Origin: Bacteroidota bacterium
GTDB taxonomy: Bacteria > Bacteroidota > Bacteroidia > Bacteroidales > PUMT01
Assembly (NCBI GenBank): GCA_003551495.1
Contig: PUMT01000195.1
Location: 1-38,124 of the forward strand
DNA: 38,124 bases
Direction of reading: 5' to 3'
In this document: in pieces, positions 6,409-34,543 of the stretch
Layout of the letters: the number at the start of each line of letters is the position of its first letter
Numbering within the stretch: the stretch's first letter is position 1
Program-made: the position numbers and the translations under genes
The notes under the pieces: model-generated
Told to the model about the DNA's origin: nothing
The model's input: the letters and a program-made list of their open reading frames with translations, nothing else
The model's database searches: none

Positions 6409-6673
6409 GCCTTATCAGTTTGTTTTTTTTACGTTTAAGAACAGGGGAGGTTTCAGCAAAATGATTGCATATCAATTAAGAAAAATTCACCTCAAATCAC
6501 AAATATTATAAACCCAACCCCTCAAATCAGTTATTTTTCAGTCTTAAAGCTTTGCAAAGCCATTGCTGCATAACACAGGATGGTTAAAAAAATTTAAAAT
6601 ATTGCATTTGACATTTCACGGCTTTTATAAATTGGTTATTTTTGAGTTCCAAACAAAAGTGAAGGATTACACG

Positions 6674-9600
6674 ATGGAAAAGATCAGTTTGAAATTTTAT
6701 GAAAAACTGAACACATTGACCGGATGGTTCGTTTTTCTGGTTGCAGTAATAGTTTTTTTCCTCACCCTTGAACCAACTGCAAGCTGGTGGGACTGCAGCG
6801 AAAGGATAACAGCTTCATACAAGCTCGAGATTCCGCATCCTCCGGGTGCTCCATTCTTCATGCTTTTGGGGAGATTTTTCACTCTTTTTGCACCCTCGGG
6901 ATCATCTGCCGCATTGTTCATGAACGGGATGTCTGCTCTTGCAGCATCATTTACCGTTATGCTCCTTTTCTGGATAATTACCCATTTTGCAAGGAAAATC
7001 GTTATAGGGGAAAATAATGAAATATCTTCCGGAAAAGTTCTTTCCATACTTGGAAGCGGTCTGGTCGGCGCACTGGCACTCTGCTTTTCCACTTCATTCT
7101 GGTTTGTTGCAGTTGAAGCAGAGGCTTATGCAACATCTGCTTTTTTCACTGCTTTTGTTTTCTGGTGCATTCTTAAATGGGAATATGTTGCAAACCACAA
7201 GCATTCCCACAGGTGGCTTATTCTTATCGCCTATTTGATGGGGTTGTCAATAGGCGTGCACCTTCTGAATCTGCTTGCAATTCCGGCGATAGTTTTTGTT
7301 TACTATTTGAGGAAATACCCTGCAACAAGGAAAGGTATAATCTATTCTTCACTTGTTTCAGTTTTACTACTTGGCAGTTTTATATGGATTATAATTCCTG
7401 GTGTAATAGAAATTGCCAGCAAGTTTGAATTACTTTTTGTCAATTCATTCGGATTACCTTTTAACAGCGGAGTATTGTTTTTTGTAGCCGCACTGACTGC
7501 CCTGATTGTCTGGGCGCTTTATTACACACACAAAAAAAAGAAACCCATATTAAACACCATTATACTTGGTCTGACAATGGTGCTGATCGGCTACTCATCA
7601 TATGCACTCACCATAATAAGGTCATCTGCAGATCCCCCGATGGACCAGAACAGTCCGGATAACGTCTTCTCCCTCATTTCCTATCTGAACCGTGAACAAT
7701 ACGGTCAGAGGCCCCTTTTCAGGGGGGAGTTTTACAGTGCACCGCAGATCGATGTTGAAGAAGGCAGGCCTATTTATATCAGGGAAGACGGGCGCTATGA
7801 AATTGCCAATTACAAGAGTGAACCCGTATACCACCCCGATTTTATAGGATTTTTCCCCAGAATGTACAGCAACAGCCCTTCTCATATCAGGGAGTACGAA
7901 AACTGGGGCAATATAAGAGGCAGAAGGATAAGGGTTACGGTTGATGGAGAAACTGAGGTGCTAACCCGTCCCACATTTGTGGAAAATATCCGTTTTTTCC
8001 TGCGTTACCAGGTATGGCATATGTACGGACGTTATTTTATGTGGAATTTCGTTGGAAGGCAAAATGACATGCAGGGGCACGGAGAAATACTTAAAGGAAA
8101 CTGGCTCAGTGGCATAAGAATTATCGATGAAATGCGACTGGGTCCACAGACGAATCTGCCTGACAGCATTGCCAATCATCCTTCGCGGAATATTTATTTT
8201 GGTTTGCCATTATTGCTGGGGCTTTTTGGGTTTTTCTTCCATCTTAACAGGAATCCCAAGGATTTTACTGCAGTTTTACTGCTTTTTGTTTTTACCGGAC
8301 TGGCAATTGTTGTTTACCTAAACCAAACACCGATTCAACCAAGGGAAAGGGATTATTCCTATGTAGGTTCTTTTTTCGCCTTTTCAATCTGGATTGGCCT
8401 TGGAACACTTTCCCTGATTGAGTGGATGAGAAAGAAAGTCCCTTTAAAGATAGCTGCAATTTCCACAACACTTATTACACTTTTTGCAGTACCTCTGCTT
8501 ATGGCCTCGCAAAACTGGAATGACCATGACCGCTCCGGTCGTTTTACAGCAAGGGATTTTGCATTTAATTACCTGAGTACATGCGAGCCTGATGCAATTA
8601 TCTTCACTCACGGTGACAATGATACTTTCCCGTTATGGTATGCACAGGAAGTGGAAGGGCACAGGACAGACGTAAGGGTTGCCAACCTGATGCTGCTGAA
8701 CACACATTGGTATATAGACCAGATGAAACTGAAAATGAACGAATCGCCTCCCCTGCCACTGACTCTTCCAAGGAAAAAGTACGTTGAAGGAACAAACAAT
8801 CTTTTATTTATACTTGACAGGTTTGATGACTATGTGGACTTGAGGCAGGTTGTTAATTTCATTGCAGATGAAAGTTCCAGGAGCAAGGTGAGGCTTAGGG
8901 ACGGCCGGGAGGTTGACTATGTGCCCACAAACAAGTTCAGGATACCGGTTGACAGGGACAAGGTTATTGAAAACGGAACTGTCTCTCCTGAGCTGGCTGA
9001 TGAGGTAGTGCCGGCAATTGAATGGTCAGTTGACAAAAATTTTCTGCAGAAGAACCATATGATATTGCTTGACCTGCTGGCTCACAATAACTGGGAAAGG
9101 CCAATATATTTCGTAACAGGAGGTACGGAAGATGCTCTGGGACTTGAGGAATACTTTCAGCTGGAGGGTTTTGCCTACCGCCTGGTACCAGTCAGGACTG
9201 AAGGAAATGATTTTGAATACGGAAGGGTCAATTCCGAAGTAATGTACGACAATTTCATAAACAAGTTTGACTGGGGAAGAATGAACGAACCCGATGTACA
9301 TCTCTGCCATTATAATATCAGGACTATCAGGGTGCTGAGACTGCGCCAGAAGTTTTCAAGGCTTGCGAACACCCTGCTGGAGGAGAACAGGAGGGACTCG
9401 GCACTTGTTGTACTCGACCGTGCAATGGAGTTGATGCCGTCAAGCAGGGTTCCAAATGACTTTATGATGCTGGGTCTGGCAGAATCATATTACATGGCCG
9501 AGGAACCCGCCAGGGCAAATGAAATAATAACCGATTATTACAAGGAGCTGAAGGACGAGTTGAATTACTATTTCAGGTTTGGAGGCAGGCACCGTAATCT

Positions 9601-9739
9601 TGTGGATCAGGAAAAAACAACTGCCCTGCAGTTGATGAATGAGCTGGCAAGAATGGCTGGAAACTTTGATCAGGAAGAGTTGTCTGAAGAGATAAAGGAA
9701 ACATTTGAAATGTTCCTTACCAGGCTATCATCATTATAG
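6674..9739 (+). CDS. DUF2723 family multi-TM protein (TMEM260/protein O-mannosyltransferase-like) with C-terminal TPR-like region
   Basis: SWWDCSERITASYKLEIPHPPGAPFFMLLGRFF is the N-terminal signature of the family, followed by multiple TM segments and GDNDTFPLWYAQEVEGHRTDVRVAN. The start at 6674 (MEKISLKFYEKLN) is preferred over the ORF-track start at 6563. Confidence 0.88.
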   Translation: MEKISLKFYEKLNTLTGWFVFLVAVIVFFLTLEPTASWWDCSERITASYKLEIPHPPGAPFFMLLGRFFTLFAPSGSSAALFMNGMSALAASFTVMLLFWIITHFARKIVIGENNEISSGKVLSILGSGLVGALALCFSTSFWFVAVEAEAYATSAFFTAFVFWCILKWEYVANHKHSHRWLILIAYLMGLSIGVHLLNLLAIPAIVFVYYLRKYPATRKGIIYSSLVSVLLLGSFIWIIIPGVIEIASKFELLFVNSFGLPFNSGVLFFVAALTALIVWALYYTHKKKKPILNTIILGLTMVLIGYSSYALTIIRSSADPPMDQNSPDNVFSLISYLNREQYGQRPLFRGEFYSAPQIDVEEGRPIYIREDGRYEIANYKSEPVYHPDFIGFFPRMYSNSPSHIREYENWGNIRGRRIRVTVDGETEVLTRPTFVENIRFFLRYQVWHMYGRYFMWNFVGRQNDMQGHGEILKGNWLSGIRIIDEMRLGPQTNLPDSIANHPSRNIYFGLPLLLGLFGFFFHLNRNPKDFTAVLLLFVFTGLAIVVYLNQTPIQPRERDYSYVGSFFAFSIWIGLGTLSLIEWMRKKVPLKIAAISTTLITLFAVPLLMASQNWNDHDRSGRFTARDFAFNYLSTCEPDAIIFTHGDNDTFPLWYAQEVEGHRTDVRVANLMLLNTHWYIDQMKLKMNESPPLPLTLPRKKYVEGTNNLLFILDRFDDYVDLRQVVNFIADESSRSKVRLRDGREVDYVPTNKFRIPVDRDKVIENGTVSPELADEVVPAIEWSVDKNFLQKNHMILLDLLAHNNWERPIYFVTGGTEDALGLEEYFQLEGFAYRLVPVRTEGNDFEYGRVNSEVMYDNFINKFDWGRMNEPDVHLCHYNIRTIRVLRLRQKFSRLANTLLEENRRDSALVVLDRAMELMPSSRVPNDFMMLGLAESYYMAEEPARANEIITDYYKELKDELNYYFRFGGRHRNLVDQEKTTALQLMNELARMAGNFDQEELSEEIKETFEMFLTRLSSL

Positions 9740-12495: not shown

Positions 12496-14154
12496 ATGAG
12501 TATGTTTTGTTATCAGTGCCAGGAAGCAGCTAAAGGAACAGGTTGCACTGTGAAGGGAGTTTGCGGTAAAACCGGAGACGTTGCAAATCTACAGGACCTG
12601 CTCCTGTTTGTAATCAAGGGTATCTCTTTCTACAACAGGCAAGCTGTAAAAAAAGGCCTGGAAGATCCTGAAGTTGACAAATTTGTGATCAACGGACTTT
12701 TTACAACTGTCACCAACACCAATTTTGACAGGAATGCTTTTATTGACCTTATAGGCAAAGGGCTTGAAATACGTAACAAGCTTAGGGAAAAAGTCGAAAG
12801 CACCGGTTCCGGAGATTCAGATGCAGTCAGGCTTCATGATTCGGCCACATGGGAGCCTTCTTCAATTGATGAATACGATGAAAAGGCCAAATCAACAGGC
12901 GTTTTGTCAACCGAAAATGAAGATATACGCTCCCTGCGAGAGCTAATAACCTACGGACTGAAAGGAATGGCTGCCTATACAGAGCATGCTATGAATCTCG
13001 GACAAAATGACACATCAATACACAAATTTGTTCAGGAAACACTTGTCGCGCTTACAAATGACGACCTGAACGCAGAAGAACTGACAAATCTTGTTTTGGA
13101 AACCGGAAGTTATGGAGTAAAGGCAATGTCTCTTCTGGATAAGGCAAACACTTCAGCTTACGGCAATCCTGAACTCACCAGGGTAAATATTGGAGTCCGC
13201 AACAACCCGGGGATACTTATCAGCGGCCACGACCTGAAGGATATGGAAGAACTGCTTAAGCAGACGGAAGGAACAGGTGTTGATGTGTACACTCACAGTG
13301 AAATGCTGCCTGCCCATTATTACCCTGCTTTCAAGAAATACAGCCATTTTGCAGGTAATTATGGACACTCATGGTGGAAACAGAAAGAAGAGTTTGAAAC
13401 ATTCAACGGCCCCATCCTTTTCACAACAAACTGCATTGTGCCTCCGCCAAAAAACGCAACCTACAAGGATAAGGTTTACACTACAGGTGCAGCAGGGTTC
13501 GACGGATTCCCCCATATACCCCCAAGAAAAGAAGGTGGAGAAAAAGACTTTTCCGGGATAATCGAACATGCAAAAAAATGCAAACCTCCGGTTGAAATAG
13601 AAAACGGCGAAATAGTAGGTGGTTTTGCCCATGCACAGGTTTTTGCGCTGGCCGATAAAGTTGTTGAAGCAGTTAAGTCGGGTGCTATAAGGAAATTTTT
13701 CGTAATGGCCGGATGCGACGGCAGGATGAAAAGTCGTGAATACTATACCGAATTTGCTGATAAACTGCCCGAAGATACTGTAGTTCTGACAGCAGGTTGT
13801 GCTAAATACCGCTATAACAAACTACCTCTTGGCGATATTGGTGGCATACCAAGGGTTCTGGATGCGGGGCAGTGCAACGATTCATATTCTCTGGCAGTAA
13901 TTGCTATGAAACTCAAGGAAGTTTTTGAGCTTAACGATATAAATGAACTGCCCATTGCATACAACATAGCATGGTATGAGCAAAAGGCTGTCATAGTATT
14001 GCTGGCTCTTCTTTCACTTGGAGTGAAAAATATTCATCTTGGCCCAACTCTGCCTGCATTCCTTTCGCCAAACGTAGCAAATGTTCTGGTTGAAAAATTC
14101 GGCATCGGAGGAATTGCCAATGTGGAAGATGATATAAAAATGTTTCTCAGTTAA
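12496..14154 (+). CDS. hcp: Hydroxylamine reductase / hybrid cluster protein
   Basis: [24 protein letters not shown]-terminal cluster, plus [49 protein letters not shown] and [10 protein letters not shown]. Confidence 0.97.
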
Positions 14155-14163
14155 ATTGGGTTG

Positions 14164-14202
14164 AAAATTCCGTTGCCCTTTCAGGGTAACGGAATTTTTT
14201 TA
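14164..14202 (+). terminator. Rho-independent terminator after hcp
   Basis: AAAATTCCGTTGCCCT-TTC-AGGGTAACGGAATTTTTTT stem-loop followed by a T-run. Confidence 0.85.
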
Positions 14203-14216
14203 ATTAAATAAAAAAA

Positions 14217-14552
14217 ATGACACATCATAAAGAATTCAAGAAATCTGAAAAATTCAGGTTCAACAATGAGATTGGCTATGCTGAAGGTGGCATTGTAAGT
14301 AAAAATGTTCTTAAGAGAAAAACCGGGAATATTTCACTTTTCGCATTTGACAAAGGTGAAGGACTCAGCGAGCATACTGCCCCCTTTGATGCAATGGTGC
14401 AGATTACCGAAGGCAAAGCTTTGGTTACAATCGATAAAAAGAGTTATAATCTGGAGGAGGGCGAAACCATAATAATGCCTGCAAACATACCGCACGCATT
14501 GAAAGCATCCGAAAAGTTCAAAATGGTGCTTACAATGATAAAAGAGGAGTAG
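14217..14552 (+). CDS. Small cupin-domain protein
   Basis: FDKGEGLSEHTAPFDAMVQITEGKALVTIDKKSYNLEEGETIIMPANIPHALKA matches both cupin motifs. Confidence 0.88.
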   Translation: MTHHKEFKKSEKFRFNNEIGYAEGGIVSKNVLKRKTGNISLFAFDKGEGLSEHTAPFDAMVQITEGKALVTIDKKSYNLEEGETIIMPANIPHALKASEKFKMVLTMIKEE

Positions 14553-14621
14553 CCAGGTTTGATCCTTTTATGATAATTTTTTTCTTGCCTGTGTTGTACT
14601 TTCGGATTAAAAAAATTTATG

Positions 14622-14629
14622 TACATTTG
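14622..14629 (+). promoter_or_regulatory. Candidate -7 box (TACATTTG) for nrfHA
   Basis: Matches the Bacteroidota TAnnTTTG -7 consensus. A TTTC -33-like element (14600-14603) lies 18 nt upstream. Confidence 0.5.
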
Positions 14630-14728
14630 AAAGTAAATCGGTTTTCGGGTACATATTAGCCATAATTATGGTTGTAAACTTTTAAGGTAAGATGCATCAG
14701 GTCTAAGAGTTAATTTAAATATTTACCC

Positions 14729-15319
14729 ATGAAGCGGATCATCAAATTTCTGGCACCACCTCCAAAATGGCAACCGGCTGTAGTTGTGTTGCTTGGAGTT
14801 TTTACCGGAATCCTTATCCTGATTGTACACGCATCCGAAGTTCAGTCATATATATCTGATAATCCTGAAACCTGCATAAACTGTCATGTAATGTATCCGC
14901 AGTATGCTTCCTGGTCAAAAAGCAGTCACCGGGAAGCCGCAAACTGTGCCGATTGCCATGTCCCGCATGACAATTTCGTAAGAAAATACTATTTCAAAGC
15001 CAAGGACGGCATGCGTCATGCCACAATTTTTACTGCAAGGACTGAACCCCAGGTAATCGAAATTAAGCCCTCGGGTATTAACGTTGTTCAGGAAAACTGC
15101 ATCAGATGCCATATTGATCTGGTTGAAACAACCCGTATTGTTGAAGTTACAGGAACCGGTCATGCCAAAGGCGACGGGCACCGGTGCTGGGACTGCCACA
15201 GGGAAGTTCCTCACGGAACTGTAAGGAGCCTCTCTTCAGCACCATTTTCACTTGTTCCAAGACTTCCGTCGCTGACCCCAAAATGGTTTGAACGTTTAAG
15301 AGATGATGATAATAACTGA
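14729..15319 (+). CDS. nrfH: Cytochrome c nitrite reductase small subunit (tetraheme)
   Basis: N-terminal TM anchor and four CXXCH motifs: CINCH, CADCH, CIRCH, CWDCH. nrfA follows directly. Confidence 0.96.
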   Translation: MKRIIKFLAPPPKWQPAVVVLLGVFTGILILIVHASEVQSYISDNPETCINCHVMYPQYASWSKSSHREAANCADCHVPHDNFVRKYYFKAKDGMRHATIFTARTEPQVIEIKPSGINVVQENCIRCHIDLVETTRIVEVTGTGHAKGDGHRCWDCHREVPHGTVRSLSSAPFSLVPRLPSLTPKWFERLRDDDNN

Positions 15320-15362
15320 ATAAAAGAAAAAAATTGAATATATAACTTAAAAACTCCCTGAA

Positions 15363-16835
15363 ATGAAAAGCATCCGAGAACTAACGGAAAAAAAACCCTG
15401 GCTAAGCTGGGTATTGTTTTTTGGAACCGTTGCAGTAGTTTTTCTTTTGGGTTTGTTTGCAGCTTCCATTGTGGAAAGGAGAACCGAAGCCCAGCTCTAC
15501 TTTCAAATGGTTGAACCCATATCAGAATGGGAGCCGAGGAATGAAGTATGGGGACAAAATTTCCCGAGGCAGTTTGAATCTTACCTGCAAACCCTTGACA
15601 CCACATTTGAAAGCAAATACTACGGCTCGGTAATGATAGATTACCTGGAAAAATATCCCGAACTGGTAATTCTATGGGCAGGGTATGCATTCGCGCGTGA
15701 TTATAACCAGGGAAGGGGACATTACTACTCGGTTACCGATGTACACAACACACTCCGGACAGTTCAGCCACAGCCCGCTACCTGCTGGACTTGCAAAAGC
15801 ACCGATGTTCCCAGGGTAATGGCTGAAATTGGTGTTGGGGAGTTTTACAGCTCCACATGGAGCGAGATGGGGAGCCAGATAATAAATCCAATTGGATGCC
15901 AGGACTGCCACGATCCTGAAACAATGAACCTTCGAATTACCAGACCGGCACTAATCGAAGCTTTCGAACGCCGCGGAGTCGATATTAACAAAGCAACACA
16001 CCAGGAGATGCGTTCACTTGTTTGTGCTCAATGCCATGTTGAATACTATTTCGGGGAAAACAACTATTTGATATTCCCCTGGGACGAAGGATTCAAGGCA
16101 GATGAAATGGAAACCTATTTTGACAACCTTGAGTTTGCAGACTGGACTCATGCTCTGAGCCGTGCACCCATGCTTAAAACCCAGCACCCTGACTATGAGC
16201 TCTACAAAACAGGGATACATGCCGAAAGAGGTGTCTCATGTGCAGATTGCCATATGCCCTATAAAAGGGAAGGCGGACTTAAATTCACTAACCACCACCT
16301 TACAAGTCCGCTTCAAAATATTGAAGGTTCATGCCAGGTTTGTCACAGGGAGGGCGAAGAAAAACTGCGCCAGATAGTATATGACAGGCAGAACAAAATA
16401 AGCGAAATGAGAAGAATAGCTGAAAAAAACCTTGCAAGGCTTCACATAGAAGCTAAAACCGCATGGGATGCCGGAGCAACTGAAGAAGAAATGGAGCCTG
16501 TTCTTCAGCTCATTCGCCATTCTCAATGGAGGTGGGACTGGGTTGCAGCTGCCAACAGCATGGGATTCCATTCACCGGCTGAAGCTCTGCGGGTTCTTGG
16601 CACATCAATACAAAAGGCTCAGGAAGGAAGAGTTTTGCTTGCCAGAATATTTTCACGTTATAACGTACCACAGCCTGTTGAAATGCCCGACATATCAACA
16701 AAAGAAAAAGCACAGGCGTATCTGGGACTTGATATGGATCAAATAGTTGCTGAAAAGGAAGAATTCCTGCAGGAAACACTTCCGGAATGGCTCGAAGAAG
16801 CTAAAAGACGTGAAGCCGGATATAGCTCCCGGTAA
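15363..16835 (+). CDS. nrfA: Ammonia-forming cytochrome c nitrite reductase
   Basis: Characteristic CXXCK heme (CWTCK) plus four CXXCH motifs (CQDCH, CAQCH, CADCH, CQVCH). Confidence 0.97.
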   Translation: MKSIRELTEKKPWLSWVLFFGTVAVVFLLGLFAASIVERRTEAQLYFQMVEPISEWEPRNEVWGQNFPRQFESYLQTLDTTFESKYYGSVMIDYLEKYPELVILWAGYAFARDYNQGRGHYYSVTDVHNTLRTVQPQPATCWTCKSTDVPRVMAEIGVGEFYSSTWSEMGSQIINPIGCQDCHDPETMNLRITRPALIEAFERRGVDINKATHQEMRSLVCAQCHVEYYFGENNYLIFPWDEGFKADEMETYFDNLEFADWTHALSRAPMLKTQHPDYELYKTGIHAERGVSCADCHMPYKREGGLKFTNHHLTSPLQNIEGSCQVCHREGEEKLRQIVYDRQNKISEMRRIAEKNLARLHIEAKTAWDAGATEEEMEPVLQLIRHSQWRWDWVAAANSMGFHSPAEALRVLGTSIQKAQEGRVLLARIFSRYNVPQPVEMPDISTKEKAQAYLGLDMDQIVAEKEEFLQETLPEWLEEAKRREAGYSSR

Positions 16836-16959: not shown

Positions 16960-19900
16960 ATGCTTCCACAAAGAGACATAAACAAAAGGTTCAGGTTCCG
17001 TATAATTATATTTTCACTGACTTTGGTCGGCATATTACTCATTGCTGCTTCATACGGTTTTTACAGGAATCAGCTACTTCTTAAAAAAACTTCTGAAAAT
17101 GAAATTGTTTTTAAAAACAGATCGGAATTGTCAAACAGGGCTTTAAAACTGGCCGGTGAAATTAAAGAAATATCCGCCAGTTTAGCCGAAAATCAGAGAG
17201 TATCAGAGTTGCTGCACAAAAGGGAATATGAACTGCTTACCGCGGAGGTTGAATCATTTCAAAACAGACTCGGGGAAAAATATAATTTCAGTTATTTTTT
17301 AAATTTCTACTTTCCGGATCAAACACTTTTCTTATCAAGCAATTACAAAGAAGAACTGTTTGTTTCCCCACGCCATTCGCTTGTTAGAAAGGTAACAGAG
17401 AAAGAGTCTCCTTTTAAAGGGCACAAAATTGTTGATAATGACCTGTATTTTAAAATAGTATCTCCCGTTTTTCACAACGGATCATTTTCCGGTCTAGTAG
17501 AATTTGGATTGCGCGACAAAGAGTTGATTGAATATTTTCAAAAAGGTATAAATGTTTCGGCAGCACTCTATTTCCCCAAGACTCTCTTCCCCCTTGTCAA
17601 CAATATACTGCCCGGGAAAAGTTTTGATTTTGAACAATTTTGCCTGAAAATTTTTGAAAATGAAGGGCTGTTTTTGGAATTTTATGATAATGACAGGCAA
17701 ACAGACCGGTTTTCTGTACGCTTTGATCAAAAACATTATATTATCGAAGATGCAGGGATTATTTACTGGTCTGATGAAATTCCTCTGGGTGGACTACTGT
17801 TAGCCCATGATACCACTCATATATTTAAAGGATACAACCGTGCTGTTCTTGCCGGCATTTTTTCCTTGTTTTTTCTGGTTGCAGCCACATATATTGCTGC
17901 AAAAGTATTTGCCGGAAGAACCGTTTCAGGTTTCAGTAAAAGTTACAAAAATCTGTTTGACAGGCTGGAAGAAAAAAATGAAAAGATAACAGAATCTGCC
18001 CTCGAAGTTCACAATATTTTCAATTCCACTGCAACTGCAATCAGAGTAATTAACAAAGATTTTCAGATCATCCGTATCAATAATTCATACGCAAAAAACT
18101 TCAAGCTAAACCCCGAAAAAACTGAAGGCAAAAAATGCTACGATTACTGGCCTGAATCCAGATGCCATAAAGATTCCTGTCCACTGACCAGAATAATGAA
18201 AGGAGAAAAAAATATTGAGAGCGAAATTGTAAAACCTGATAAAACAGGAAAAGAGATTGCAGGGATTCAAACATGCATCCCTTTATACGATGAAAAAGGG
18301 AACCTGAAGGGTATGGTAGAGGATTTCAGGGATATTTCAGAAAGGAAAAAAACTGAAGATGCAATTATAAAAAGTGAAAAAGAGCTTAAAAATTTCATTT
18401 ACAATCTTCCCCTGGGTGTATTTATAAAGGATTCTCAAAGCCGTCCCTTTTACCATAACAGGTACATGGATGAAGTATTTTGCAGGAAAAACTGTACTGA
18501 AAATACACCCCATGAATTATTCCCTGGTAAAATTGCCCGGCTTGAAAGAGATGAGGATAAAAAAGTGCTTTCAGGTGAAAATATAGTAGTTGAAAAGATC
18601 CTGCCTGATAAAAATGGAAGGGAACGGATCTACATGGTCCATAAATTCGCAATGAAAGAGATTCATGGCACCTCACGCATCGGTGGAATATACATTGATA
18701 TTACAAAACGTAAAGAGGCTGAATATAAGCTGAGGATCCTGTCACGTGCAATAAGGTATTCACCTGTTTGCGTCGTAATAACTGATCCTGAGGGCAATAT
18801 AGAATTTGTTAACCCGGCCTTCACCCACATTACAGGTTACAGCTTTGCGGAAGTAATGGGGAAAAATATGAACATTGTCAACTCGGGAAAACATAAGGGT
18901 GAATTCTTCATGAAAATGTGGAAAACAATTAAAAGCGGAAAAGACTGGCAGGGGGAAATACTGAACAGAAAAAAGGATGGTACACTTTTCTGGGAAAAAG
19001 TTGCTATATCGGCAATTATAAACAATAAGGGGAAAATCACTCATTTTGTGGCAATCAAGGATGATATCACAAAAAGTAAAGAGGCTGAAGAACAAATAAA
19101 AAAGGCAAAAGAGAAAGCGGAAGAAAGTGACAGGCTGAAAACCACTTTTCTTGCCAATATGTCTCATGAAATCAGAACTCCCATGAATGCTATCGTGGGA
19201 CTTTCAAGATTACTTGTCGATACCGGGATATCGCTGGAAGAGCGCAAATCTTTCACAGGCATAATTAACGAAAACAGTCAGACGCTTCTTAAACTTATTG
19301 AGGACATTATAGATATTTCAAAAATTGAAGCCGGACAAATAAGTATAAACAAAAGCGAATGTCAGTTAAACCAGCTTCTTGATGAAATACTGAATACTTT
19401 CAAATCCCAGATAGAAAAACAGGAGGGTAAACGTATCAGATTATCGGCTCACAAAGGCCTTGATAACACGAGGGCAACAATAATAACTGACCCCCATCGC
19501 CTGAGACAGATACTTTTCAACCTTATCGGGAACTCCTGCAAATTCACCGATAAAGGATCGGTTGATTATGGTTACGAACTTTCAGACTCCGGAAAACTGA
19601 AGTTTTATGTAAAAGATACCGGTATAGGAATATCAAAGGATAAAACTGAAATTATCTTTAACCGATTCAGGCAGGCAGAGGATTCGACAACGAGAAATTA
19701 CGGGGGGGCAGGTCTTGGACTTACAATTTCAAAAAGCCTGGTTGAGATACTTGGAGGAGAAATATGGGTTAATTCAATACCCGGTGAAGGGACAATTTTT
19801 TACTTTACACTCCCCTACCAGCGTGCAGCAACAAAAAAACCTGCCGGCAAGGTTGTGCAAATCAGCAAAGGGAAAGAATTGTCCTTTAAAGAAAAAACAA

Positions 19901-20259
19901 TACTGGTCGCAGAAGATATAGAAGCTAACTACCGCCTTATAGAAGCCCTGCTCAAGAAAACAGATGCAACAGTATTGTGGGCGAGAGATGGTGAAGAAAC
20001 AATTGAAATGTGCCGCAGAAAAAATAATATCGATCTGGTTCTTCTGGATATCAACATGCCGGGTATCAACGGTTATGAAGCACTGGTTGAAATAAAGAAG
20101 CTAAAAACTTCTCTGCCTGTAATAATGCAAACCGCTTATGCCATGCCAGGTGAAGAGGAGCGATTCATAAAGGCAGGATGTGACGGGTACATAACTAAAC
20201 CAATAAACAGTGATGTATTCCTGAACACAATAAGAAAATGCCTTGAAACACCATTATAG
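16960..20259 (+). CDS. PAS-domain hybrid sensor histidine kinase / response regulator
   Basis: Two TM segments flank an extracytoplasmic sensor. Several PAS domains follow, then HisKA (FLANMSHEIRTPMNAIVGLS), HATPase (DTGIGIS, GGAGLGLTISKSLVEILGG) and receiver (LVLLDINMPGINGYEAL...GYITKPIN). Confidence 0.94.
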   Translation: MLPQRDINKRFRFRIIIFSLTLVGILLIAASYGFYRNQLLLKKTSENEIVFKNRSELSNRALKLAGEIKEISASLAENQRVSELLHKREYELLTAEVESFQNRLGEKYNFSYFLNFYFPDQTLFLSSNYKEELFVSPRHSLVRKVTEKESPFKGHKIVDNDLYFKIVSPVFHNGSFSGLVEFGLRDKELIEYFQKGINVSAALYFPKTLFPLVNNILPGKSFDFEQFCLKIFENEGLFLEFYDNDRQTDRFSVRFDQKHYIIEDAGIIYWSDEIPLGGLLLAHDTTHIFKGYNRAVLAGIFSLFFLVAATYIAAKVFAGRTVSGFSKSYKNLFDRLEEKNEKITESALEVHNIFNSTATAIRVINKDFQIIRINNSYAKNFKLNPEKTEGKKCYDYWPESRCHKDSCPLTRIMKGEKNIESEIVKPDKTGKEIAGIQTCIPLYDEKGNLKGMVEDFRDISERKKTEDAIIKSEKELKNFIYNLPLGVFIKDSQSRPFYHNRYMDEVFCRKNCTENTPHELFPGKIARLERDEDKKVLSGENIVVEKILPDKNGRERIYMVHKFAMKEIHGTSRIGGIYIDITKRKEAEYKLRILSRAIRYSPVCVVITDPEGNIEFVNPAFTHITGYSFAEVMGKNMNIVNSGKHKGEFFMKMWKTIKSGKDWQGEILNRKKDGTLFWEKVAISAIINNKGKITHFVAIKDDITKSKEAEEQIKKAKEKAEESDRLKTTFLANMSHEIRTPMNAIVGLSRLLVDTGISLEERKSFTGIINENSQTLLKLIEDIIDISKIEAGQISINKSECQLNQLLDEILNTFKSQIEKQEGKRIRLSAHKGLDNTRATIITDPHRLRQILFNLIGNSCKFTDKGSVDYGYELSDSGKLKFYVKDTGIGISKDKTEIIFNRFRQAEDSTTRNYGGAGLGLTISKSLVEILGGEIWVNSIPGEGTIFYFTLPYQRAATKKPAGKVVQISKGKELSFKEKTILVAEDIEANYRLIEALLKKTDATVLWARDGEETIEMCRRKNNIDLVLLDINMPGINGYEALVEIKKLKTSLPVIMQTAYAMPGEEERFIKAGCDGYITKPINSDVFLNTIRKCLETPL

Positions 20260-20289: not shown

Positions 20290-21153
20290 TTATACAGCCT
20301 TTTTAACCGAATCATTTTCAAGAAGCCCGTCAAGGCATTTGAGGTACTCATCAGCCAGCCTGTCACCGAAATACTCAAAGAATATATCATGAACAAGCTC
20401 GCGTATATTACTAAGCCAGTCTATATAGGCAAGTGCTGTAATTTTCCCTTCATTTCTCGATGAAAATTTCTGCCTGAGAATGTTTAAACTGGGGAGCAAT
20501 GCCAGATATGCCCTCACTGCGGTGTAAAGTTCAGTTGAAAAATATTTTTCTATATGCTTGATATCCCCGGGCATTATCTCATAACTCCTCTCATAAATAT
20601 CTTTAAAAGTGTTGTTCCAGTTTATATAATGCAAAAAATAATTTGCTGTCTTATATGCTCTCTGATCATTTTGAGAATTGACATAGCTTTCAAATATTTG
20701 CTCAAGCTTATTGTAAAAGGCATCTTTAATAATCCTGTCAAGTCTTTCTGCTATATCTGAACTGTATCTTGCATAAGTCCTGGCAAAACTGTTGTCATAA
20801 AGTTTTTCCGTTGAACGTGTTTCAATCATTGCTGTTTTCTTTACTATTTCCAGTTCCTGTTCCAGCAATGATGTAAGTGGAAAAAGATTGTTGCTTTTAG
20901 ATTTTTTCATCAGGCTTTCCGATAAAAATCCCTCCAAAAGCAGCTTTGAAGAATAAGGGTCTTTATCTACAAGCAGCTCTGCATCACTGCTGTACGGCCT
21001 GAGATAATGCCCAATGCGACTTAGAACTGAAATAGTGTCCTGCCCTTTGGACACAGATATATAAACCGGATAGTACTCCCCCATGCAGCCAAGCATGGCT
21101 GTTTCAGTTTTGTCAAGAAAATGGTACGCTTCCAAATCTTTATAACAATCCAT
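20290..21153 (-). CDS. Hypothetical protein
   Basis: 287-aa ORF with coherent helix-rich composition, positioned between genes. No family recognised by eye. Confidence 0.75.
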   Translation of the reverse strand: MDCYKDLEAYHFLDKTETAMLGCMGEYYPVYISVSKGQDTISVLSRIGHYLRPYSSDAELLVDKDPYSSKLLLEGFLSESLMKKSKSNNLFPLTSLLEQELEIVKKTAMIETRSTEKLYDNSFARTYARYSSDIAERLDRIIKDAFYNKLEQIFESYVNSQNDQRAYKTANYFLHYINWNNTFKDIYERSYEIMPGDIKHIEKYFSTELYTAVRAYLALLPSLNILRQKFSSRNEGKITALAYIDWLSNIRELVHDIFFEYFGDRLADEYLKCLDGLLENDSVKKAV

Positions 21154-21459: not shown

Positions 21460-23370
21460 ATGTTAGAGCTCAAGTTCAATCTTAAAGCAAAAACCGGCCT
21501 GATCACGGATGCTTCAAAGGTCGAAGAACGGGAATCCAGATTAAGAAAAGAGTACGGTAAAATACTTGAATACGAAAAAACCGGTGAACCCGCGAGGTTT
21601 TTTGAACTGGATGAAATTGTAAACTCTCCGGAATTCAAGGAAAAGAGAAAAATAATCAACAGCCGCAAGTTCAGCGACACAGAAGCCTATGATAAACTCA
21701 TGGCTTACAGGGAGATGAAAAAATCCAGGCCTGTTGCAGGATATTTCAGGTTTATATCAAATCCATTTTTTGAAAGTTTCCGGAAGATTGAAAGTTCGGA
21801 TGAAGTGAAAAAGTTTCATGAACTGGAAAAGTATGTCAGGTCCGGTGAGCTTGACCGCATAAAAAAAATGAAATTCGAAGATACGGAAGCATACGAAAAA
21901 TACCTGGCATACAAAAAATTGAAAAAATCGCCTGATATACAAGATTACTTTTCAGTAAAATCTTCCAAATACTTCGATGCGTTCAAAGAAACTGAAAACA
22001 GTGAAAAACTGGCAAGGTTAAAGGAACTTGAAATGTTCGTAAATTCAAGCGACTTTCATGCCAGAAAAAAAGTGTTATCATCATCTGAGTTCAAAGAAAC
22101 TGATGAATACAAAAAGTATGAGGAATACCTTCACCTGAAGGAAGACCCTAAAATAATTGCCTATTATAACATTGCATCTTCAAAAGCTTTTGCAAATTAC
22201 AAGGTTTTGGCAGACTCTCCTGATATAATGGAATATGAAAAACTTGAAAAATACATCACATCAGGAGAATATGAAAAGGATAAGAAACAATTTGAAATTG
22301 AAAAAGCGACTGCACTGCATAAGGAAAAAGAATACAAAAAACTGAAAAACAGCAGCAAATACAAAAAATACTTCAAACTTAGAGGTTCAAAGGATTATGA
22401 ATATTACAGGGAACTCCACAATTCTGATAAGATAAAGGAGTATATGGAACTGGAAAAATTTGTCCAGTCTGTCGAGTTCAGGGAGCTTAAAAAGCAAATG
22501 CAATCCCGCAATAAATTCAAAAATTCACCTGAATACCAGCAATTGCTTGAATACTCTGAATTAAAGAAATCCCGAAAGTTAAAATGGTACCTCAAACTGA
22601 AAGATTCACAAGTTTTCGACGAAATCAGAAGATGGGAGCTTGTTTTTTCCGATGATTTTCTTACGAACGGACTGAACAGGGAGAAATGGCTGACGTCTTA
22701 TTTCTGGGGGAAAAACCTTCTGAATGATAGTTATTCACTTGCTGCAGATCAGCACTATTTTACTGCTGACAATAATTTCGAAATTAAAAACGGGGTTCTT
22801 AAACTATATACCAAAAGGGAAAAAATTAAGGGTAAAGCATGGGATCCATCAATCGGTTTTTTTGAAAAATATTTTGATTTCACTTCCGGTATGATAAACA
22901 CAGGCGAAAGCCTGTGGCAAAAGTACGGTGCATTTGAGGCCAAAGTCAGATTAAACGCATCGCCCTCGGTTTACCACACTTTTTGGATGGTATCTGACAA
23001 AATGGTTCCCCACCTGAATGTATTCAGGTTTTCAGGAAGCAATAAGAAACAGGTCAATATAGGAGGGCTCTGGCAGGATGAATCAGAGCCGGACAGGATC
23101 AAAAAAACCGAAAGTACTGTCAAAGGTGTGGACTTCTCTCGCAACTACTACATTTTCAGACTGGAATGGTCACCTGAAGAGATAATATGGAAAATCAACA
23201 ATAATGTTGTTAAAAGAGAACGCAACAAAGCATTCAATAAACCTATGTATTTAATTTTCAGTTCGGGTATTGCCGGCGATGCAACTGAAAACAGCCTGCC
23301 TGTATCATTCGATATCGACTGGGTTAAAATATACAGACCGGCCGGGAAGCAGATTACTGAAGAAAACTGA
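21460..23370 (+). CDS. Protein with five tandem ~70-aa helical repeats fused to a GH16-like (concanavalin/laminarinase fold) domain, probably catalytically inactive
   Basis: C-terminal GH16-like landmarks: WELVFSDDFLTNGLNREKW, YGAFEAKVRL, HTFWMVSDKM, YYIFRLEWSPEEIIWKINNNVV, PMYLIFSSGIAG, FDIDWVKIYR. N-terminal repeated units carry ELEKYV.SGE...KK...FK.TE.Y.KY..YK.LKKS...YF.LK.SK.F..F. No signal peptide is visible. Confidence 0.85.
   Translation: MLELKFNLKAKTGLITDASKVEERESRLRKEYGKILEYEKTGEPARFFELDEIVNSPEFKEKRKIINSRKFSDTEAYDKLMAYREMKKSRPVAGYFRFISNPFFESFRKIESSDEVKKFHELEKYVRSGELDRIKKMKFEDTEAYEKYLAYKKLKKSPDIQDYFSVKSSKYFDAFKETENSEKLARLKELEMFVNSSDFHARKKVLSSSEFKETDEYKKYEEYLHLKEDPKIIAYYNIASSKAFANYKVLADSPDIMEYEKLEKYITSGEYEKDKKQFEIEKATALHKEKEYKKLKNSSKYKKYFKLRGSKDYEYYRELHNSDKIKEYMELEKFVQSVEFRELKKQMQSRNKFKNSPEYQQLLEYSELKKSRKLKWYLKLKDSQVFDEIRRWELVFSDDFLTNGLNREKWLTSYFWGKNLLNDSYSLAADQHYFTADNNFEIKNGVLKLYTKREKIKGKAWDPSIGFFEKYFDFTSGMINTGESLWQKYGAFEAKVRLNASPSVYHTFWMVSDKMVPHLNVFRFSGSNKKQVNIGGLWQDESEPDRIKKTESTVKGVDFSRNYYIFRLEWSPEEIIWKINNNVVKRERNKAFNKPMYLIFSSGIAGDATENSLPVSFDIDWVKIYRPAGKQITEEN
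21592..22635 (+). repeat. Five tandem protein-level repeats (68-72 aa each)
   Basis: The [E/K]-L-[E/D] anchor recurs at codons 21604, 21820, 22024, 22240 and 22447, giving spacings of 216, 204, 216 and 207 nt. R2 FHELEKYVRSGELDRIKKM..., R3 LKELEMFVNSSDFHARKKV..., R4 YEKLEKYITSGEYEKDKKQ..., R5 YMELEKFVQSVEFRELKKQ... Confidence 0.9.
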
Positions 23371-27264: not shown

Positions 27265-27987
27265 ATGTGTAAAAGTATCTATATCACGGCAATATTTTCC
27301 CTTATCTTGATGCACCAGGCTGCAAGCCGGCCGCATACTCACCCGCATGAGTCTTTTTATATTTCTTCAAATAACGACACCGTAAATAAGACAGGAGAAC
27401 TGGTTGACATTAACGGCAATACATATGAAACAGTTCGTATAGGAACCCAGGTATGGATGGCCGAAAACCTCAATGTTTCTCAATACAGCAACGGAGATCC
27501 CATTCCAAGGGTAACAGATGATAAAGAGTGGGAAAATATAAAAGAAGGAGCCTACAGTTATTACAGGAATTTCTGGTATTTTGGCCGGGTTTACGGCGCT
27601 ATTTACAACTGGCATGCTGTTAATGACGAGAGGGGGCTGTGTCCTGAAGGATGGCGGGTTCCGGATGATTCTGACTGGCGTGCATTGTCAGATTACCTTG
27701 ACGGAAGAGAAAATGCAGGAGGCAAGCTAAAAGCAAGATCCCTGAGATGGATGAGGCCGAATGAGGGGGCAACCGACAAAACCGGCTTTTCTGCACTTCC
27801 CGGTGGCTACCGCCATAGCAACGGTACATTTTATAATATAAGGCAGTTCGGGGACTACTGGACATCCCTGGGATTCCCCGATGGATATGCATTTTTCAGA
27901 AGCTTCTGCAACCGGTACCCATATATACATGAAGGTGTATACAGCAAGAATGCCGGTGCTTATGTCAGATGCATCAAAAAGGATTAA
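27265..27987 (+). CDS. FISUMP domain protein (Fibrobacter succinogenes major paralogous domain)
   Basis: DINGNTYETVRIGTQVWMAENLNVSQYSNGDPIPRVTDDKEWENI...GAIYNWHAVNDERGLCPEGWRVPDDSDWRALSDYLDG...ATDKTGFSALPGGYR...GAYVRCIKKD. Confidence 0.9.
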   Translation: MCKSIYITAIFSLILMHQAASRPHTHPHESFYISSNNDTVNKTGELVDINGNTYETVRIGTQVWMAENLNVSQYSNGDPIPRVTDDKEWENIKEGAYSYYRNFWYFGRVYGAIYNWHAVNDERGLCPEGWRVPDDSDWRALSDYLDGRENAGGKLKARSLRWMRPNEGATDKTGFSALPGGYRHSNGTFYNIRQFGDYWTSLGFPDGYAFFRSFCNRYPYIHEGVYSKNAGAYVRCIKKD

Positions 27988-29913: not shown

Positions 29914-30918
29914 ATGAAAAACAGGGCACAAAAAATCCGTCTGGGCATATTCACCTTTATATCCCTTGCCTTACTGGTCATCCTTATCGGATTATTCAGT
30001 GTTCCCAGGCTGTTTGAGAAAAAAGACCATTATTATATTGCTTTCAGCGATATATCTGTTAGTGGTCTGCAGGTTGGGAGTCCGGTAAAATATTTGGGCA
30101 TTGATGTTGGATCGGTAACTGATATAAAAATTGATCCATCAGATATCAACACTGTAATTGTGAGAATAGGACTTCAGTCAGGAACCCCTGTAAAGGAAGA
30201 TGCTGTTGCAAATATTCATACTCTGGGGGTTACCGGACTCAGGTCTATAGAGATAAGAGGGGGGAGTCAGGATGCAGATGACCTCAACCCCGGGCAATAT
30301 ATAGACGCCGGAACAACATTGACTGCTGAAATCACCGGAAGGGCAGAAGATATTCTTTTCAAGCTTGATGAAATACTGGTCAACCTTGGGGAGGTTACAC
30401 AACCGGATAACCTTCGCACCTTCACAGAAGCCACTGAAAATATTTCCCTGCTTGCAGGCACTGCCAGCTCCTCAATCACAGCCATTGATGAAATTGTTTC
30501 GGAAAACCGCAGCGATATCAGGGAAACCGTTTTATCACTAAATCAGATAGGGAAAAACCTGAACAAAAGTTCGGAAGAGATTGTACATGTTATAGGTAAT
30601 ATTAATAAAATTATTGAAGATGAAAAAACAGGGGAGCTGCTTGAGGCTTTGACCGAAATATCCAAAGCATTGAGCGATGCCGGGATCAGCGAGCTTGCAA
30701 AAGATCTATCGGGGGCGGGTATCCAGACAAGGCATTTGCTGAACAGACTGGACGAAGATATTGACACCGGAAGTGAAAAGCTGAGCAATAACATGCTGAT
30801 TTTACAGCACACCCTTGAAAACCTGAACGAAGCATCCCGGATGATAAATGCCGACCCCTCTGTTTTGATCAGGGGAAGGAGCACCAGAAATGCACCTGAC
30901 CGGGAATTAAAAAACTAA
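29914..30918 (+). CDS. MlaD/MCE family protein
   Basis: N-terminal TM followed by an MCE domain: YYIAFSDISVSGLQVGSPVKYLGIDVGSVTDIKIDP...VKEDAVANIHTLGVTGLRSIEIRGG, then a long helical C-terminus. Confidence 0.93.
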   Translation: MKNRAQKIRLGIFTFISLALLVILIGLFSVPRLFEKKDHYYIAFSDISVSGLQVGSPVKYLGIDVGSVTDIKIDPSDINTVIVRIGLQSGTPVKEDAVANIHTLGVTGLRSIEIRGGSQDADDLNPGQYIDAGTTLTAEITGRAEDILFKLDEILVNLGEVTQPDNLRTFTEATENISLLAGTASSSITAIDEIVSENRSDIRETVLSLNQIGKNLNKSSEEIVHVIGNINKIIEDEKTGELLEALTEISKALSDAGISELAKDLSGAGIQTRHLLNRLDEDIDTGSEKLSNNMLILQHTLENLNEASRMINADPSVLIRGRSTRNAPDRELKN

Positions 30919-30922
30919 TAAA

Positions 30923-31564
30923 ATGAAAAAAATATTTTTTATTTTATCATTTTTCGCTCTGCTGGTTTCCGGTTGCCGTAGCACAAGGGAAGCCGAAATC
31001 AGGTTCTATTTGCTGGAGTATCCCGATGAGTATTATACCCCCGAATCAGACTATTTGGATCCGGATGCAGTATCCGGAAAAACCTGCAGGATTTCAGGGG
31101 TAGAAGTACATCCTGCATTTGCTTCGCACAAAATAGCAATACGTGAAAATTCAAACGAAATAAGGTACTTTTCCTACAATCAGTGGGCAGTAAGACCCGG
31201 TCAGAGCCTGGACCTGATTTTGAAAGATTTCTTAAGAAGAAAAAATGTTTTTAAAACGATCCTGTCGGCTGATGAAAGAGGTGAAACAGATTATACCCTT
31301 GAAACATATATCCCCAGACTTGAAGTTGTACGAAATGGCAAGGTTTATAATGCTCACATCGAAACCAAATTCAGATTGAAAAACAACCTTACCGGTACAA
31401 CAGTTTTAGAGTACCGGTCAGATAGCCTCCAAGAGCTCGACGAGAGATGCCTGAACCAGTTTTCTTCGGAAATTAGCAGAATGTTCGTTCAGGAATTGCA
31501 TAAATTCGTACTAAAAATTAATTATAATCTGGCAAAGGCTGAAGCCGGGAAAAACAATTATTAA
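30923..31564 (+). CDS. ABC-type transport auxiliary lipoprotein (PqiC/DUF330-like)
   Basis: Lipobox FALLVSGC; Y/F-x-L-x-x-Y start (RFYLLEYPDEY), FSYNQWAVRPGQSLDLILKDFLRR. Located between mlaD- and mlaE-like genes. Confidence 0.75.
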   Translation: MKKIFFILSFFALLVSGCRSTREAEIRFYLLEYPDEYYTPESDYLDPDAVSGKTCRISGVEVHPAFASHKIAIRENSNEIRYFSYNQWAVRPGQSLDLILKDFLRRKNVFKTILSADERGETDYTLETYIPRLEVVRNGKVYNAHIETKFRLKNNLTGTTVLEYRSDSLQELDERCLNQFSSEISRMFVQELHKFVLKINYNLAKAEAGKNNY

Positions 31565-31596
31565 TATTTCTACGGATATTTAATCTCATTAACAAT

Positions 31597-32739
31597 ATGC
31601 CGGCCGGGAAACAGAAAAGAACAAAATATAACAATCATTCGGCTGATAACAACTTTTTCCGGATGGAAGGCAGTAACCTGCTTTTCATGAAGGAACTCAA
31701 AACGGAGCAATGCGATGATCTGATAAATTTTATCAGACAAATGATGGATGATCCGGAATTAGATCTGGTGAAATTTGACCTTAGCGGACTTGAAGATATT
31801 GACAGTGCAGGGGTTATTACAATTTTTTTTGCAAAGCAGATGCTTGCTGATAAAAATATTAAAGTCGAAATTGTTGGCGGTTCTCCACAGATATGTAAAA
31901 AAATTGAACTTTTCCGTCCGGGACAAAAAGAAATAAAGAGCACAGTTCCCAAAAAAAAAATTTTTGAGTTAGTTGGTGAAAAAACTCATCAGCTTTTTTC
32001 ATCATATATATATGATTTTTTAATACTTGGTTCAAGTGTCTCCTATTATGCTATAAGAGACCTTTTTAACAGAAAAAGCAGGCGAAAGGGTGAATTCCTT
32101 ACCCAGTCAGTTTTAATTGGGGTTAATGCGGTCTGGATTATTGTTCTGATGTCCTATATAATAGGATTGGTAATTGCACTTCACTCGGCGGCACAGCTAA
32201 GAGATTTCGGTGCTGACATTTTTATTGTTGACATTATTGTAATAGGAACAATGAGGCAGATGGGGCCTCTTATCGCAGCTATTCTTGTGGCCGGAAGAAG
32301 CAGTTCTGCTATTGCAGCCGAAATTGCCACAATGAAGGTCACAACTGAACTCGATGCGCTTAAAACGATGGGGCTTGACCCGGTCAGGTTCGTAGTGATA
32401 CCCAAGATTTATGCATGCATGTTTACAATGCCATTTCTAATAATCCTGGCCAACACTTTTGGGATAGCGGGCGGTGCAACAGCCGCTTATTCATACCTTA
32501 ATCTGCCGCCTGAGATTTTCACAAACCGAATGAGCGAAATTGTCCAGAATAAGGACTTGTTTACCGGCCTGGTCAAAAGTCAGGTATATGCCTGGATAAT
32601 AGTACTCACGGGAGCATTTTACGGTTTCAGGGTGGAACGGGGAGCAGAAGATGTGGGAAGGGCTACCACCGTAGCGGTAGTAGTTGCGATTTCTCTGGTA
32701 ATACTTGCTGACAGCATCCTGGGTTTATTGTTTTACTAA
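31597..32739 (+). CDS. STAS domain-MlaE family permease fusion
   Basis: N-terminal STAS: LVKFDLSGLEDIDSAGVITIFFAKQML. The MlaE core follows: TQSVLIGVNAVWIIVLMSYIIGLVIALHSAAQL...MRQMGPLIAAILVAGRSSSAIAAEIATMKVTTELDALKTMGLDP. Confidence 0.94.
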   Translation: MPAGKQKRTKYNNHSADNNFFRMEGSNLLFMKELKTEQCDDLINFIRQMMDDPELDLVKFDLSGLEDIDSAGVITIFFAKQMLADKNIKVEIVGGSPQICKKIELFRPGQKEIKSTVPKKKIFELVGEKTHQLFSSYIYDFLILGSSVSYYAIRDLFNRKSRRKGEFLTQSVLIGVNAVWIIVLMSYIIGLVIALHSAAQLRDFGADIFIVDIIVIGTMRQMGPLIAAILVAGRSSSAIAAEIATMKVTTELDALKTMGLDPVRFVVIPKIYACMFTMPFLIILANTFGIAGGATAAYSYLNLPPEIFTNRMSEIVQNKDLFTGLVKSQVYAWIIVLTGAFYGFRVERGAEDVGRATTVAVVVAISLVILADSILGLLFY

Positions 32740-32750
32740 TACATATTTTA

Positions 32751-33539
32751 ATGAAGTATGAAAATATGATAGAGGTCCGGGATCTTTCCGCAACAATTGA
32801 CGGGAAGAAGATATTATCCGGAGTATCATTTACAGCCCGCAGGGGCGATATTACTGTAGTAATTGGCGGAAGCGGTGCAGGTAAAACAACTGTTTTGAGG
32901 CATCTGCTGGGTCTCTATCCATTAACAAACGGATATATTTCTGTTCTTGGAAAGGATATAAGCAGTATAACCGAAAAGGAACAAAACAAACTCTATCTGC
33001 AGACCGGAGTTTTTTTCCAGAACGGCGCATTGCTGAACTCGATGACCGTCGGTGAAAATGTGGCTTTACCACTTGTTCAGCATACCGATCTTCCCGAATC
33101 ACTGATCAGGGAAATTGTTCTTATGAAGCTTGGTCTTGTAAACCTTGAGGACTCATTCAATCTCTACCCTTCACAGCTGAGCGGCGGAATGCTCAAGAGG
33201 GCTGCACTGTCAAGGGCAATAGTAATGGACCCTCCCCTTCTTTTCTGTGACGAGCCGGGTTCGGGCCTTGACCCCCTTTCTATGGAATCACTCGATTACC
33301 TGATAATGAACCTGAAAAACAGGCTGGGGATGACTATAGTTATGATAACCCATGAGATCCATACAATCCTGCGCCTTGCCGACAAAATAGTTTTTCTTCA
33401 TCGGGGTAATTCATTGTTCGAGGGAAGTGTGGAGGATGCACTTTCTTCAGAAAACAAGGATATTAAAGACTTCTTTTCAGTAGTTAACAAAAGAAAACAG
33501 TCCCCTTTACAAAATAACTCCCCTGAAAGCAACCTTTAA
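32751..33539 (+). CDS. MlaF-like ABC transporter ATP-binding protein
   Basis: Walker A GGSGAGKTT, signature LSGGMLKRAALSRA, Walker B PLLFCDEPGSGLDP. Confidence 0.95.
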   Translation: MKYENMIEVRDLSATIDGKKILSGVSFTARRGDITVVIGGSGAGKTTVLRHLLGLYPLTNGYISVLGKDISSITEKEQNKLYLQTGVFFQNGALLNSMTVGENVALPLVQHTDLPESLIREIVLMKLGLVNLEDSFNLYPSQLSGGMLKRAALSRAIVMDPPLLFCDEPGSGLDPLSMESLDYLIMNLKNRLGMTIVMITHEIHTILRLADKIVFLHRGNSLFEGSVEDALSSENKDIKDFFSVVNKRKQSPLQNNSPESNL

Positions 33540-34543
33540 TCATTGTCTTTTATGCATCTGACACTGCACCCCCGATGCTTGCTGGAAGAGAAACGAAATA
33601 CCCCCGGGTAATCGTAACGCAAAACCATATTATGAGCCCATGATCCATCTATACCGTGCTCATCTGCTGACCACCAGAAAGCCCTTTCCCCAAGATCCCG
33701 AAAGCTGCCTGCTCTTTCACGGTATCCGGCCGGAAAAGCCGAAAAACCTCCGGTATTTGTTGCACCGGTATTAGGTTCATTCCATCTGGGATGCAAATCG
33801 GGGAATGTCCTCTCCGACTTCATGGCTCCACCGGCAATTTCGCTTCCACCAAGGAAAATTACAAGAGAGTCCCAGTCCTCCTCCCCCGGCACACGCCACC
33901 CGGGCGGACAAAGCCCCCTTTCATCTGCAACCGCGTACCAGTTATATAAAGCACCGTAATATTCACCTCTTCCTTCATAACGGTTTTCGTACCATACAAA
34001 TGCCCCGCCTGTAAGGTTGTGCCAATCATTACCATCCTCTATTTCAGGTATCGGATCGCCGTTTCTGTAACTTGAAACCATCAGATTCCCGGCCATCCAT
34101 TCCTGGTTGCCCACAATTATTGTATTGTAATGGTTTCCCTCGTGATCTGTAACACCTTCGCCATACCTGAACAGCGTAGTTGTAAAGCTCAATATTTCAC
34201 CGGTAGATATCCCCTGTTCATTTTCGGCAAAAGCTGAAATATAATATGTAGTTTCCATCTCAAGTCCTTCCAGCTTTATTTCAAACTCACCCATACCGCT
34301 TCCCGCAACAATTTTTTGGCCTTCATCAGGCAGATCGGGTTCTTCTCCCCAGTAGAAGCCTCTTTCAACAATATTGCCTCCGCCGTCAGAAGTTACTCTT
34401 CCTGCAGCAATTGCCGATACGGCTGTAACATCATAAGGAGGATAAGTTTCTGCAACAGGCAGCGAGGTTGCCCCCTCACGGGCGCAACTGCAGATCAATA
34501 CAATGTAAAGAAGAGCAGATTGGCTGATTATTAAAAACTTCAT
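33536..34543 (-). CDS. FISUMP domain protein with one N-terminal Fn3-like repeat
   Basis: VSAIAAGRVTSDGGGNIVERGFYWGEEPDLPDEGQKIVAGSGMGEFEIKLEGLEMETTYYISAFAENEQGIS is followed by DHEGNHYNTIIVGNQEWMAGNLMVSSYRNGDPIPEI...GLCPPGWRVPGEEDW...CSVRCIKDND. Confidence 0.9.
   Translation of the reverse strand: MKFLIISQSALLYIVLICSCAREGATSLPVAETYPPYDVTAVSAIAAGRVTSDGGGNIVERGFYWGEEPDLPDEGQKIVAGSGMGEFEIKLEGLEMETTYYISAFAENEQGISTGEILSFTTTLFRYGEGVTDHEGNHYNTIIVGNQEWMAGNLMVSSYRNGDPIPEIEDGNDWHNLTGGAFVWYENRYEGRGEYYGALYNWYAVADERGLCPPGWRVPGEEDWDSLVIFLGGSEIAGGAMKSERTFPDLHPRWNEPNTGATNTGGFSAFPAGYRERAGSFRDLGERAFWWSADEHGIDGSWAHNMVLRYDYPGVFRFSSSKHRGCSVRCIKDND

Follow-up and report, generated by a model that had tools for sequence, protein, structure and literature searches.

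The window, meaning the whole stretch of 38,124 nucleotides analysed here, carries on its forward strand an open reading frame (21460–23370) that starts with ATG and codes for a protein of 636 amino acids, in which an all-helical arm of ~389 residues precedes a GH16-fold head. Pfam, AlphaFold and dN/dS comparisons underlie the description of the whole gene as an arm joined to a GH16 pseudoenzyme head. Directly upstream, on the reverse strand (20290–21153), is a gene for a 287-amino-acid protein with no convincing match in Pfam, NCBIfam or PADLOC. Elsewhere in the window, a hydroxylamine reductase (hybrid cluster protein), a NapC/NirT-type cytochrome and an NrfA-type ammonia-forming nitrite reductase are encoded in a row (12496–16835), and a PAS-rich hybrid histidine kinase (16960–20259) comes after the NrfA-type reductase; these genes form a nitrite-ammonification block. 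The window also encodes a 1058-amino-acid protein with a TMEM260-like protein O-mannosyltransferase domain (6563–9739) and an Mla/MCE-type lipid transport operon (29914–32739), the latter flanked by three proteins with a FISUMP (Fibrobacter succinogenes major) domain (27265–27987, 33536–34543 and 36974–38080).

The first-pass annotation had recognised a GH16 fold in the C-terminal part of the protein, and several independent comparisons agree with it. The head (residues 390–627; 22627–23340, forward strand) was matched by PF00722 at residues 436–622 with an E-value of 1.5e-9, past the gathering cut-off, and sequence searches aligned GH16 laminarinases of the PDB with residues 390–626 (E 1.8e-8). 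An AlphaFold model of the full-length protein, built with 58 family sequences as the input alignment, shows helices to residue 391 and then a beta-sandwich (mean pLDDT 91.1, pTM 0.61), with values mostly above 90 in the head. A Foldseek search of the PDB with the predicted head returned GH16 laminarinases and carrageenases as the top matches (4dfs, E 2.8e-17), with TM-scores by target of up to 0.81 against GH16 structures. By homology and by structure prediction, the head of this gene product is a GH16 fold. The GH16 structures 4dfs, 3azx, 4bow and 2vy0 are homologous over the whole head and share its predicted beta-sandwich; unlike them, the window protein has no ExDxxE motif, no signal peptide and an eroded cleft, and it carries an extra W-x4-G-F loop as well as the helical arm.

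The former catalytic strand, HLNVFR (residues 518–523; 23011–23028, forward strand), had been placed correctly, and it aligns column for column with the E-I-D-I-M-E strand of GH16 enzymes, so that positions 518, 520 and 523 of the E-x-D-x-x-E motif read H, N and R. Alignment revealed no intact ExDxxE elsewhere. Both catalytic acids had been called lost, and in the window they are (H518 and R523). A check for orthologs retaining both had also been proposed, and the two glutamates occur together in none of 77 distinct family heads, the first being kept in 8 and the last in 5, versus an E-D-E triad in 44 of 45 outgroup GH16s and Q-D-E in the remaining one. The claim that the middle aspartate is gone as well holds for the window and its closest relatives, where it is replaced by asparagine, but does not extend to the family, in which 57 of 78 members keep D520. 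As judged from the alignment, the fixed loss in the family is that of the glutamate pair, not of the middle aspartate. The commonest family triad is H-D-[K/R] (39/77); the general acid/base position is Lys or Arg in ~60 members, although the first position can also be Q, E, R, F or M and the last E, C, I, N, S, V or D. One Prolixibacteraceae clade (L078, L079, L081 and L087) reads R-x-N-x-x-E, having lost the first glutamate and, unlike most of the family, kept the last. An enzyme that is still active, either because its catalytic residues have moved (e.g., to His518/Asp520) or through new chemistry, would fit the prevalence of H-D-[K/R] and has a precedent in known pseudoenzymes with migrated residues (PMC10211241); as the triad is not fixed across the family and the entire cleft is eroded, we regard this reading as very improbable.

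The changes in the head extend beyond the catalytic strand. Most family members have lost Trp505 and Trp516 (present in 96% and 91% of the outgroup, respectively), His537 (100%) and the G605-G606-x-G loop; from what is generally known of GH16 we take these outgroup residues to serve in sugar binding, the two tryptophans by stacking. Lys495 and Asn580 stand in the family where outgroup GH16s carry Arg and Asp. Residues of the fold itself (F400, W410, N439, G490, W570, P614 and D620) are retained, and comparison of the head alignment with outgroup GH16s identified a family-specific insertion, W461-x4-G466-F467 (22840–22860, forward strand), that is ~97–99% conserved in the family and absent from ~40 of the 45 outgroup sequences. 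Because cleft residues have been lost while fold residues were kept and a new loop is conserved, the active site has been remodelled and is not decaying. On the sequence evidence, the window protein and its family are almost certainly GH16 pseudoenzymes.

Family members, defined by a cut-off of E <= 1e-35, were found in 102 of 393 genomes of a Bacteroidales sample, nearly always at a single place per genome. Whole-genome searches recovered evident orthologs of the window gene within its genus (74% identity), within its family (~50%) and in numerous further families of the order, and in a phylum-wide sample the matches beyond the family were ordinary GH16s (best E 7e-28). Named records belong to Bacteroidales and include Marinilabiliaceae (Anaerophaga, Breznakibacter, Labilibacter and Plebeiobacterium), Prolixibacteraceae, Odoribacter and Prevotellaceae, together with many metagenome-assembled genomes. 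In a maximum-likelihood tree of the heads, one branch with support of 100/99 parts 70 family rows from all 45 outgroup GH16s, which indicates at the level of sequence that the family has a single origin, its catalytic apparatus having been lost once, in an ancestor within Bacteroidales. Three members (L041, L046 and L076) come from metagenome-assembled genomes labelled Chlorobiota or Atribacteria; the tree places them among Bacteroidales sequences, and they are probably mislabelled bins. Three quarters of the sampled Bacteroidales genomes have no family gene, so the gene is dispensable at that level. A phage origin was considered and rejected, as there were no viral contigs and no PHROG match, and viral fold matches reflected general GH16 or lectin folds; a search for defence systems with PADLOC likewise yielded no match.

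Nei-Gojobori comparison of the window gene with its 74% identical ortholog (L031) gave an arm dN/dS of ~0.06 and a head dN/dS of 0.05; only the direction of this result, purifying selection, is safe because dS is saturated. This bears on the reading of the gene as a sequencing error or as an ordinary GH16 decaying into a pseudogene; only occasional broken copies in other genomes speak for that reading. With an intact frame of 636 codons, the same loss in orthologs at 74, 50 and 38% identity, and this low dN/dS, we rejected that explanation and assign it next to no probability. The broken copies themselves, which in some draft assemblies carry a frameshift or stop codons (L007 and L039; L025; G033:C1; G504:C121), may represent assembly error or decay.

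The protein had also been reported to have no visible signal peptide. The open frame reaches only 11 codons further upstream, so no signal peptide is hidden by a wrongly chosen start, and by a crude hydrophobicity measure none of 58 family members exceeds the threshold for a hydrophobic N-terminal core, against 89% of outgroup GH16s. The N-terminal cap (residues 1–42; 21460–21585, forward strand), delimited from AlphaFold and family sequence comparison, begins with a short, hydrophobic and slightly basic segment with a predicted helix at 2–11; a motif of the family, G-x-x-P/D-x-[TS]-x-x-[VI]-E, and a long predicted helix at 18–40 come next; E22 is invariant in family alignment A3. In 45 of 58 members the first 18 residues, mildly basic on average, exceed every other sampled stretch of the arm in hydrophobicity, and membrane docking through this segment is possible from its composition. 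The same feature, together with the fact that GH16 relatives work outside the cell, could be read in favour of a surface or extracellular lectin exported without a signal peptide, for example through vesicles or lysis; however, no member has a hydrophobic N-terminal core and no common neighbour genes hint at a secretion system, and we consider such export improbable.

Genes near the family members are conserved only among near relatives and provide no functional link. No second GH16 was found in the genome that carries the window; as the sole GH16 found there, the window protein is not an accessory to GH16-based glucan degradation in that genome. Several other carrier genomes likewise gave one GH16 match only, so the protein is not linked to glucan breakdown by GH16s. 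We found no CAZyme or polysaccharide-locus neighbourhood common to the family, which, along with the loss of most of the stacking tryptophans and His537 and the gain of the conserved W461/G466/F467 loop, favours a purely structural or protein-protein scaffold, in which the head would be a stable beta-sandwich for contacts or oligomerisation and would bind no glycan. Conservation of much of the former active-site strand pattern (D520, H/Q and K/R) goes beyond purely structural need, however, and this scaffold, while a serious candidate, seems to us somewhat doubtful.

The helical repeats described in the first-pass annotation are borne out by the predicted helices and by the lags at which the arm resembles itself. 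Five repeats, all on the forward strand, follow the N-terminal cap: repeat 1 (residues 43–113; 21586–21798), with self-similarity at lags of 72 and 140; repeat 2 (114–181; 21799–22002); repeat 3 (182–253; 22003–22218); repeat 4 (254–322; 22219–22425), which contains one long merged helix at 270–297; and repeat 5 (323–391; 22426–22632). The first four were delimited from AlphaFold helices and internal similarity and the fifth from the full-length model, in which its last helix (384–391) connects without an intervening loop to the opening beta-strand of the head (392–398). Each repeat comprises ~71 residues in about five short helices. Modelled alone, the arm reached a pLDDT of 92.5, and its overall shape is uncertain at a pTM of 0.60–0.61 for the arm-only and full-length models. 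Residues 1–389 matched no Pfam family or PDB entry, 38 arms searched against Pfam for a curated repeat family gave scattered weak matches only, an arm profile found nothing convincing among PDB sequences, and in a Foldseek search with the arm model nothing reached significance (best E 0.18, with a high rmsd). The weak Foldseek matches include long rods of helices or coiled coils (F-BAR, SMC arms and colicin), which like the arm are elongated and all-helical but, unlike it, are not made of repeats of about five short helices. Across 99 genomes the arm profile matched these genes only. A candidate repeat-only protein in one genome (G497) was rejected, as its two pieces (L141 and L142) both lie at contig ends and are in all likelihood a single gene that the assembly broke in two.

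Across 58 members the head varies little in length (226–249 residues), whereas the arm measures 103–108, 158–182, 220–265, 282–309, 377–400, 450, 542 or 585 residues. These lengths cluster at a period of 71–72 residues, with a vector strength of 0.67; on the 34 distinct values it is 0.62, a strength reached by none of 2000 random sets, although the random sets ignore relatedness. Similarity within arms peaks mainly at lags of 69–75, 132–150 and 201–219, and the steps in length and the lag peaks together indicate that arms gain and lose roughly whole repeats. Near relatives already differ, with an arm of 389 residues in the window, 282 in L034 and 231 in L035–L038. This quantised arm length, the family-wide fixed loss of catalysis and the erosion of the remaining active site are new beyond the first-pass annotation, whose suggestion of a binding or structural module, or an intracellular scaffold, is the best-supported class for the window protein.

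Non-catalytic GH16 homologs are known in insects, where beta-glucan recognition proteins (GNBPs) carry a GH16-fold domain without the catalytic glutamates and have a non-enzymatic role (PMC6403176, PMC6827312). Those are secreted animal immune recognition proteins; the present family is bacterial, has no signal peptide core and sits on a helical rod. In a survey of GH16, loss of one or both catalytic residues affected 0.7% of GH16_3 sequences, 1% of those in other GH16 groups and ~9% of GH16_4, where the losses do not form monophyletic groups (PMC6827312), in contrast to the single well-supported clade described here. A paper on Tannerella GH16s concerns ordinary GH16_3 lipoproteins with an active site (PMC13352502). 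No earlier description of the family was found in the open-licence literature; subscription journals may hold one.

With catalytic residues and export signal lost and a rod that varies stepwise, the protein is therefore probably an intracellular binding or spacer protein and not an enzyme. Purifying selection, the loss of catalysis, export and stacking residues, and the presence of a new conserved loop and a repeat rod all point to an adaptor inside the cell. We infer a cytoplasmic location, binding, the charge of the ligand and the spacer role, and the reading that we favour, at about even odds, is a GH16 pseudoenzyme of the cytoplasm with a head that binds a ligand or partner and an arm that, as a spacer, sets the reach. 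A GH16 beta-sandwich in which catalysis was lost once would have been fused with a long rod built of ~71-residue helical repeats, and the head would act as a non-catalytic adaptor, making contact with its ligand or partner by way of the remodelled cleft and the new W-x4-G-F loop. Replacement of the acid pair by His/Gln and Lys/Arg suggests that the ligand is a glycan, either anionic or phosphorylated, or that the partner is acidic. In the model the rod and the head are continuous, and the rod would keep the head at a set distance from a docking point, which would be whatever the hydrophobic N-terminal cap or rod attaches to. By analogy, the insect beta-glucan recognition proteins (PMC6403176) offer a precedent for a binding role of a dead GH16, although the loss of most stacking tryptophans weakens the case for classical beta-glucan binding. 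A bolder and rather unlikely version is that these proteins form an undescribed intracellular class, in which a lectin-like dead GH16 head is carried by an arm that has a new helical-repeat fold and serves as a molecular ruler, the number of repeats in each species setting the length; such proteins would read an anionic glycan or glycan precursor inside the cell and position it at a fixed distance.

In total, the family is a bacterial clade with one ancestral catalytic loss; purifying selection has maintained it, it lacks an export signal, and its arm belongs to no known family. Genome annotation will label these proteins glycosyl hydrolases, and hydrolysis by the GH16 mechanism is impossible for them. 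If the proposed binding is true, they would be a bacterial counterpart of the insect glucan-recognition proteins and would provide, with arms from 103 to 585 residues, a natural length series for testing molecular-ruler ideas.
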